Shown here one piece after another: positions 2,539 through 5,474 of a stretch of DNA of 15,638 bases (positions are counted from its first letter, which is position 1; each line of letters begins with the position of its first letter). The stretch covers positions 1 to 15,638 of the forward strand of contig JALUFY010000124.1 in NCBI GenBank assembly GCA_027051995.1, in the 5' to 3' direction. The notes under the pieces were generated by a model. It ran no database searches. It was not told the origin of the DNA and was given only the letters and a program-made list of their open reading frames with translations. Source of the stretch: Hyphomicrobiales bacterium. GTDB lineage: Bacteria; Pseudomonadota; Alphaproteobacteria; Rhizobiales; Aestuariivirgaceae. The position numbers were made by a program, and so were the translations under genes.

Positions 2539-3372
2539 TCAGGCTTGGCAATTCGCGGCGAAGTCCGCCAGTTCGGCGTTGAAGCGCTCCGGGACCTCCG
2601 CGTAGGGGCAGTGGCCCGCGCCTTCATAGAGCGAAAGACGCGCGGAGGGGATCATCCCGGCAACGGTTTTCGAGACATCGGGCAGCACCACAGAATCCTC
2701 GCTTCCGTGGCTGAGCAGCACCGGAACCTCAAGGCCTGCGAACATGGCCTCGTAGGCCAGCCGCTTGCGCACCATCGCGCCGCGCACATCCGGGCGCGAG
2801 AGCATGGAGGCGGCAAGCTGGATTTCGAAATACTCTTCTGGAACGGGCCGGACGAAACAGGCGTGCAGGAGGCCGCGCATGGCGGCGATGGATTCGGCCA
2901 TGTCCGCGCTGCGCCCGCCCGCCGCGTTGTCCAGAAGCCCCGGCCCATACCAGCGCCCCGGCTGGCCCCTGGTGAACAGAACGGCGGGCGCGATGAGATT
3001 GACGCCCGATATGGCCCGCGCGCCGTGCATGGAGAGATAATCGCAGATCACCGAGCCGCCATAGGACCACCCGGCCAGCAGCGGCCTTTCCAGTTCTAGC
3101 TCCCTGATGACCGCATCCACGTCACCGGCCCACGGGGCGTTATCCGTATAGTGCTCCGCCCCCCGCGGCGCGCCGGACATGCCATGGCCGCGCAAATCCA
3201 CCGCCACCAGCCGGAAACGCTCCACAAGCGCCTTGTCGCGCATCTGAAACAGCCACGCCAGATGGCTTTGCGCCCAGCCATGCAGAAACACGATGGCCGG
3301 CCCCTCCGGCCTGCCCGCCTCGCATGCATGCAGCAGCACGCCGCCCGCGCCCGTGATGAAATGATGTCTCAT
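2539..3372 (-). CDS. Alpha/beta hydrolase
   Basis: The product is a 277-residue, apparently soluble single-domain alpha/beta hydrolase. Visible landmarks are the oxyanion-hole HGWAQ (residues 31-35), VDLRGHGMSG (58-67) and the nucleophile elbow GWSYGG with Ser103. The likely acid is Asp226 in SHGSEDSVVLP, and the catalytic His254 is in GAGHCPYAEVPERF. The triad is complete, so it should be active. The family includes esterases, C-C hydrolases, haloperoxidase-like enzymes and lactonases, and the substrate cannot be assigned. I use the ATG at 3372; a longer reading from a TTG at 3396 adds eight residues and has no better ribosome site. A plausible minus-strand promoter lies upstream (TTGATA at 3461-3466, 17 bp, TTTGAT; or a -10 TATCAT at 3423-3428). 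The gene follows ilvC on the same strand but is separated from it by the predicted opposite-strand sRNA. Confidence 0.85.
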   Translation of the reverse strand: MRHHFITGAGGVLLHACEAGRPEGPAIVFLHGWAQSHLAWLFQMRDKALVERFRLVAVDLRGHGMSGAPRGAEHYTDNAPWAGDVDAVIRELELERPLLAGWSYGGSVICDYLSMHGARAISGVNLIAPAVLFTRGQPGRWYGPGLLDNAAGGRSADMAESIAAMRGLLHACFVRPVPEEYFEIQLAASMLSRPDVRGAMVRKRLAYEAMFAGLEVPVLLSHGSEDSVVLPDVSKTVAGMIPSARLSLYEGAGHCPYAEVPERFNAELADFAANCQA

Positions 3373-3472
3373 GCCGCCAGTGTGCCCGCCCGCCAAGCGC
3401 CGCGCAATTGGCCTTTGGCGGGATGATACAACTTTTAATCAAATCTTAACCATTTGCCGCTATCAAGGAGAG

Positions 3473-3544
3473 CAGAATTCATGTGACCCTCCCTCCTCTC
3501 TTGACACATGAACAGGGCCGCCCCATCCGGAGCGGCCCTTTTTT
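3473..3544 (+). ncRNA. Predicted anti-Shine-Dalgarno small RNA
   Basis: Two adjacent hairpins on the plus strand look like a small regulatory RNA. The first is a perfect 8-bp stem, TTCATGTG (3478-3485) with CACATGAA (3505-3512). It closes a 19-nt loop that carries CCCTCCCTCCTCTC (3487-3500), which is complementary to purine-rich ribosome binding sites. The second is an intrinsic terminator (3514-3544). Alphaproteobacterial trans-acting sRNAs of the CcsR/'cuckoo' and AbcR types display such CCUCC motifs in loops and end in a terminator. The 5' end is inferred: a weak -10 (TATCAA, 3461-3466) would start transcription near 3473, and I could not identify a good -35. No plus-strand gene precedes it, so it is not the 3' UTR of a visible gene. 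It converges on ilvC. Confidence 0.6.
3514..3544 (+). terminator. Intrinsic terminator of the predicted sRNA
   Basis: AGGGCCGC (3514-3521) pairs with GCGGCCCT (3532-3539) around a 10-nt loop, followed by six T's (3539-3544). The T-tract is on the plus strand only. Read from ilvC, the A's come before the stem and no U-tract follows, so it is a poor terminator in the ilvC direction. Confidence 0.8.
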
Positions 3545-3565
3545 ATTGACTGACTGAAAGACGGT

Positions 3566-5474
<1,909 letters not shown>

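Follow-up and report, generated by a model that had tools for sequence, protein, structure and literature searches.

The window, that is, the whole stretch of 15,638 nucleotides that was analysed, contains a proposed small RNA (sRNA) of about 72 nt (3473..3544, plus strand) between two minus-strand genes. The left flank is a gene for an alpha/beta hydrolase (2539..3372; PF12697 and PF00561 above cut-off), whose likely start was picked by us as the ATG at 3372. The right flank is ilvC, which encodes ketol-acid reductoisomerase (3566..4588; NF004017, 563.9 bits, above cut-off) and is a convergent neighbour of the element.

The hairpin, its loop and the terminator

The first hairpin (3478..3512, plus strand) has a perfect 8-bp stem, in which TTCATGTG at 3478-3485 pairs with CACATGAA at 3505-3512, and a 19-nt loop (3486-3504) that reads ACCCTCCCTCCTCTCTTGA and carries CCTCC twice; these letters were read directly, and the same 19 nt between the two arms have also been summarised as CCCUCCCUCCUCUC. 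An intrinsic terminator follows at once (3514..3544, plus strand), with its stem at 3514-3539 and six T at 3539-3544. In this respect the original prediction, made from the sequence alone, was accurate: the stem and loop are borne out by sequence and fold, and the plus-strand T tract does come directly after the hairpin. Folded as RNA, 3473-3546 (74 nt) forms exactly two hairpins with the anti-Shine-Dalgarno loop unpaired, at -27.1 kcal/mol (z -5.3), and none of 200 shuffles was as good; the terminator supplies most of this stability. Taken alone, the first hairpin (3473-3513) is not unusually stable (-6.9 kcal/mol, z -1.5; equalled by 40 of 500 dinucleotide shuffles).

The combination of a CCTCC hairpin and a terminator is rare. 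In 1,007,044 bases of loci (a set with some overlap, from which 5 own duplicates and 9 viral loci were excluded), a stem of 7 bp or more, CCTCC in its loop and a terminator directly behind came together a single time, in this window. Sixty stretches of the own genome (354,716 bases) hold 215 looser hairpins (stem of at least 6), one of which precedes a weak 6-bp terminator-like match. A simple consensus scan listed neither the terminator described here nor, within 3000-4200, any sigma-70 promoter.

On the plus strand no plausible gene precedes the terminator, as had been claimed. Every plus-strand ORF of at least 25 aa overlapping 2900-3473 was scanned, four in all: 3151-3426, 2545-3099 and 2765-3040 gave no Pfam match, and no DUF1127 match was found in these or in 3371-3511, which agrees with the earlier statement that the element does not stand behind a DUF1127 gene. 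The ORF at 3371-3511 (46 aa) crosses the hairpin and does not look coding. It might be taken for a very small gene that ends in a terminator of its own, its frame being open and its stop lying a few bases before the terminator, inside the hairpin; this is hardly credible given its GC3 of 0.49 (ilvC, 0.89), the lack of a Pfam match and of any Shine-Dalgarno sequence visible on reading, and a start antisense to that of the hydrolase. At 3465-3486 (plus strand), AAGGAG is followed 10 bases on by ATG TGA, a start and then directly a stop, which probably lies outside the RNA if the latter starts near 3473.

In the ilvC direction, T makes up just 4 of the 8 bases past the terminator stem. On the ilvC strand, 7 of the 8 bases before the stem of the window are A (the plus-strand T tract), vs 0-5 in eight same-genus relatives, whose stems come from an automatic stem finder and in some cases may not be true terminators. 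Two of these relatives (L114 and L115) have an A run inside the stem and a third (L119) has 5 A before it, and these three of eight could also stop plus-strand transcription. Because of the A runs inside the stems of L114 and L115 and the doubtful stems, the difference in terminator direction between the window and its relatives is only suggestive.

The opposite strand offers a different reading, in which RNA reading through from ilvC would carry the antisense of the loop, AGGAGGGAGGG, as a strong Shine-Dalgarno sequence for a 15-codon ORF (3435-3482, minus strand), which would govern the hydrolase gene as a leader peptide or as a translational switch. The letters there do read AGGAGGGAGGGTCAC-ATG and then an open frame, MNSALLDSGKWLRFD, which starts 9 bases after AGGAGG and ends in a stop; moreover, no strong minus-strand T tract follows the stem, and the minus strand of 3440-3570 folds at z -2.95. 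In that fold, however, the purine run is paired with a downstream CUCUCC and not free. The peptide has just 15 codons and overlaps the CtrA-type box described below, two relatives (G001 and G006) have the hydrolase gene without such a leader, and the plus-strand T tract and the match to dctP would be left unexplained, all of which makes this reading quite improbable.

The CtrA-type box and the putative promoter

A perfect CtrA-type box, TTAATCAAATCTTAAC (3435..3450, plus strand), lies upstream of the hairpin; it is the sole perfect TTAA-N7-TTAA in the window and would be expected to bind CtrA. A -10-like sequence, GCTATCAAG (3459..3467, plus strand), is found 9 bases past the TTAACC, although the consensus scan did not pick it out. 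The spacing is similar at ctrA (TTAACC, 9 bases, TATCTT) and at a BacA-type gene (TTAACC, 9 bases, TAGGGT). Judging from the box and the -10-like sequence, the RNA would start near 3473, which places the box at about -38 to -23. According to the part of the source available, TTAA-N7-TTAA is the CtrA consensus and most CtrA-activated promoters in Caulobacter have one site at -35 (PMC11264516). A CtrA-controlled gene is expected to have a near-consensus box at about -35 in a genome that encodes CtrA, and both are found here, the position being that relative to the presumed start and CtrA scoring 426.3 bits vs an NCBIfam cut-off of 350. CtrA control of the RNA is plausible on these grounds.

Genome-wide, TTAA-N7-TTAAC has 18 matches, vs 2 for the reversed pattern, and by our count the 18 represent 13 distinct sites. 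Other boxes of the genome lie by ftsZ, by the sigma-70 gene rpoD, and between gcrA and a carbonic anhydrase gene; further neighbours are genes with COX1, cytochrome d1, cytochrome c, SBP_bac_3, BacA, YkuD and rhodanese domains, in a domain list that leaves out sites L180, L182 and L184. A pattern analogous to the one studied here, box plus CCTCC, showed no enrichment across the family (50 vs 94 in the control, by our sums).

The box is nearly symmetrical, the presumed ATG of the hydrolase is about 62 bases away and a -10-like TATCAT lies on that side, so the box might drive the minus-strand hydrolase gene, with no CtrA-controlled sRNA at all. This is improbable, in view of the TTAAC at its downstream end, which faces the hairpin as at ftsZ, and of the hydrolase genes of G001 and G006, which have no perfect box upstream. 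The box could, on the other hand, serve both directions, and thus the hydrolase gene (2539..3372) as well as the proposed RNA.

At L172 (C72 of the own genome) a perfect CtrA-type box is situated between cytochrome d1 (nitrite-reductase type) and divergent cytochrome c genes, a hint that CtrA may touch denitrification. At L170 (C11 of the own genome; 1-1353, minus strand) a COX1-type oxidase gene lies by a CtrA box and ranks 6 of 343 in pairing with the loop (-22.5 kcal/mol).

The dctP leader and other candidate targets

The complement of loop positions 3488-3504, TCAAGAGAGGAGGGAGG (17 nt), is found at three places in the genome when up to 3 mismatches are allowed (reversed control, 4): itself, C162:3303-3319 with one mismatch, and another with three. 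C162:3303-3319 corresponds to -28 to -12 before the ATG of dctP, and 16 of the 17 positions can pair (8 bp, one mismatch, 8 bp). The product of dctP is a TRAP substrate-binding protein of 346 aa (PF03480; NF037995 above cut-off), and dctQ and then dctM lie downstream. The element thus shows the mark of a trans-acting anti-Shine-Dalgarno sRNA, which is a mode of action and no family: its C/U loop is unpaired and matches, as a complement, the ribosome-binding site of a target in trans. A divergent GntR-type regulator and an Fe-S protein like lactate-oxidising subunits adjoin dctP; since both are below their family cut-offs, a lactate-like substrate for dctPQM is a guess.

The 68 other genomes of the family contain 11 sites with up to 2 mismatches, and the reversed control 19 (sum over 69 genomes). 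A single-mismatch site occurs once in those 68 genomes together, and not before an ORF of 60 codons, which makes a chance site with one mismatch roughly a 1-in-68 event per genome. Among the relatives' sites with up to 2 mismatches that were fetched, 4 of 10 precede some ORF start, and the location of the dctP site before a start therefore carries less weight.

Target prediction, which had been suggested as a check, singled out dctP: it has the best duplex energy of 343 sampled starts (-29.4 kcal/mol), a rank that is biased because C162 was fetched partly for its match to a 14-nt complement of the loop, the 17-nt search and the 68-genome null being fairer. Opening the dctP mRNA site costs about 4.5. 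Shuffled loops equalled the dctP value, as the best over 343 starts, in 2 of 100 mononucleotide and 5 of 100 dinucleotide shuffles. The 14-nt complement is not enriched genome-wide (196 vs 269 reversed); 4 of its 13 two-mismatch places, dctP included, have an ORF start (at least 60 codons) within the next 20 bases. Since the mean pairing of the loop with starts is no better than that of shuffles, the evidence favours one specific target and is against a broad tuning to ribosome sites. In this sense, dctP is one well-supported candidate target.

A branched-chain amino-acid permease gene (PF02653; L211 586-1500, minus strand, C44 of the own genome) has the leader AAGGAGGGGAGGGGGGAATG, which pairs with the loop at -30.6 or -30.3 kcal/mol; as it was drawn from 29 of 195 other 14-nt-complement places and has no null of its own, it is only a lead to a possible second target. 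Self-regulation through ctrA, gcrA and ftsZ was also considered and discarded, their pairing ranks being 40, 159 and 258 of 343. The position facing ilvC appears to be a matter of position only, and ilvC is absent from the 25 best loop pairings.

Conservation, proposed mechanism and comparison with known sRNAs

Within the genus, ilvC was found in 9 of 11 genomes, counting this one. In the eight same-genus relatives that have it, the 450 bases following ilvC were read by eye; all eight lack the hairpin there, and several have terminator-type stem-loops. In the nearest relative (IlvC 96% identical) the order is ilvC, terminator, hydrolase gene, and the two genes lie about 118 bases apart. After ilvC, G008 (L116) carries a direct repeat of about 100 bases in several copies, and every copy has a GTCCGAGGATGGC...GTCCTCGGAC stem-loop. 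The original prediction had staked itself on close relatives not losing stem and loop while keeping the terminator; this has come about in part, the hairpin being missing in 8 of 8 and the terminator-type stem-loops of several being perhaps the same terminator.

A covariance check had also been put forward with that prediction. With model R2 (the hairpin alone), the own genome was the one match among 297 genomes of the order, and with model R1, in 69 family genomes, the own site scored 114.1 bits and the next best 32.8 bits; both scans used stricter filters, with which weak matches are lost. Of the further R1 matches, 46 were inspected and proved to be terminators or other stem-loops, none with the first hairpin and a CCTCC loop. 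By blastn of 3425-3550 against 40 genomes, only short matches (15-44 bases) were obtained besides the own site. Plasmids and phages yielded nothing beyond matches of about 30 bases that lie in the terminator, while 9 viral contigs contain 15 bases identical to part of the loop region. Conservation thus lends the sRNA no support, and absence in relatives is no refutation either. The element is apparently restricted to one species.

A rival view is that this is an ordinary intergenic region: the terminator would belong to ilvC or put an end to stray antisense transcription, and chance would account for the hairpin, the C/U loop and the match to dctP. The unconserved hairpin would fit this view, as would the 40 of 500 shuffles that match it when taken alone and the relatives' terminator-like stem-loops after ilvC, 3 of 8 perhaps bidirectional. 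Against it stand the plus-strand location of the T tract (just 4 of 8 T in the ilvC direction), the CtrA box at the right distance, the immediate succession of CCTCC hairpin and terminator, which about 1 Mb of sequence showed a single time, and the complementarity to dctP; it is considered unlikely, although well worth reckoning with.

The best explanation, in which we place about even confidence, is a species-specific, CtrA-controlled, single-hairpin anti-Shine-Dalgarno sRNA gene acting in trans to repress transporter translation. A stand-alone sRNA gene is probable, and this reading stays the best one because of the CtrA box in promoter position and the outstanding target at the dctP start. 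The trans-acting repressor proposed at the outset therefore gains from the box and from the dctP site and loses from a hairpin unconserved in 8 of 8 relatives. In such a mechanism, CtrA would bind at 3435-3450 and activate a plus-strand promoter; the RNA would start near 3473 and end in the T tract near 3544, and its first hairpin would keep the 19-nt pyrimidine loop open. The loop, probably with Hfq (encoded in the genome, above cut-off), would then pair with ribosome-binding sites of transporter mRNAs and block their translation, the dctP leader being the chief target and the branched-chain amino-acid permease gene possibly another.

The orthologous dctP leaders of G001 (protein 85% identical) and G006 (83%) keep GAGGGAGG, the Shine-Dalgarno core, and lack TCAAGAGA, the other half of the dctP site; they pair at -20.5 and -20.3 kcal/mol, vs -29.4 in the own dctP. 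The models found no RNA in these two relatives, which are few. A more specific and rather doubtful proposal is that of a newly born sRNA-target pair: a CtrA-driven single-hairpin RNA would have arisen in one species while the dctPQM leader gained TCAAGAGA on an old Shine-Dalgarno core, so that the cell-cycle regulator would silence carboxylate (perhaps lactate-like) uptake at a set stage of the cycle. What is new is the combination, together with its seeming confinement to one species; mechanisms of this kind are already known. If true, there would be a direct link between the alphaproteobacterial cell-cycle regulator and the post-transcriptional control of nutrient uptake, and an anti-Shine-Dalgarno sRNA would be seen pared down to a single hairpin with its terminator. 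The joint origin of an sRNA and its target site would also become tractable here, since the RNA and half of the site both seem to be missing from near relatives. In the openly licensed literature, titles and abstract openings on CtrA, sRNA and anti-Shine-Dalgarno or transporter described no such RNA among the matches listed.

The whole window has no Rfam match at gathering thresholds, and the sub-threshold matches (sbrA, ErsA, ar14, suhB and others) look like likenesses of shape or terminator. The best of them, sbrA of Listeria (RF01489; 28.4 bits), shares a short stem, a loop of about 20 nt and a terminator; it is below the gathering score of 45 and comes from a distant phylum, the likeness being one of shape only. 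Membership of the ar14/cuckoo family (RF02344) was rejected by score (20.3 bits vs a gathering score of 58.8) and by motif, there being one hairpin besides the terminator and no CCTCCTCCC in 3473-3546. In the available portion of PMC10746234, ar14/NfeR1 has three hairpins, each with CCUCCUCCC, whereas here there is one such hairpin, with a loop that lacks CCUCCUCCC, and a CtrA box instead of LsrB/NtrC control. Shared features, within that portion, are a C/U-rich anti-Shine-Dalgarno loop on a hairpin of variable stem in its own transcription unit (also in cuckoo RNAs) and the blocking of ribosome sites of transporter mRNAs, shown for NfeR1 in Sinorhizobium and proposed here (PMC10746234).

With AbcR1/AbcR2 (ar15) the candidate has in common an open anti-Shine-Dalgarno stretch, and in Sinorhizobium these RNAs have been shown, in the section of the source at hand, to pair with transporter mRNAs at the ribosome site and so repress their translation (PMC8844928). 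The AbcR motifs given in the same section, CUCCUCCC in the loop of the 5' hairpin and UUCCCCUC in the stretch separating hairpins (PMC8844928), are absent from 3473-3546, ar15 is not among the matches listed to E 10, and the size differs (about 72 nt vs 114-121 nt), so membership of this family was rejected too. CcsR1-4 of Rhodobacter sphaeroides, associated with the DUF1127 gene ccaF1, are likewise small alphaproteobacterial sRNAs, of the CcsR type cited in the original prediction; they are processed, according to the accessible part of the source, from a transcript with the DUF1127 gene and four RNA copies, whereas one copy and no DUF1127 match are found here. A locus of the CcsR/CIN1 type was discarded in view of the four scanned plus-strand ORFs, among which DUF1127 is absent. 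By score, motif, hairpin number and neighbourhood the candidate is not a member of the AbcR or NfeR1 families, but it would work like them.

Among sRNAs of the cell cycle, EcpR1 acts on gcrA and dnaA (PMC4414408) and GspR on ctrA and cspA5 (PMC5928217); the available parts of both sources do not tell of CtrA control of these RNAs. CcnA of Caulobacter crescentus is described, in the available part of its source, as a 182-nt RNA at the replication origin that has a CCCC loop and targets ctrA and gcrA (PMC8959179), whereas the candidate is about 72 nt long, has ilvC as a neighbour and places ctrA and gcrA no higher than 40 and 159 of 343 in pairing. As far as that part goes, both have a CtrA box before a non-coding RNA and a C-rich loop acting, in the candidate by proposal, on 5' leaders (PMC8959179).
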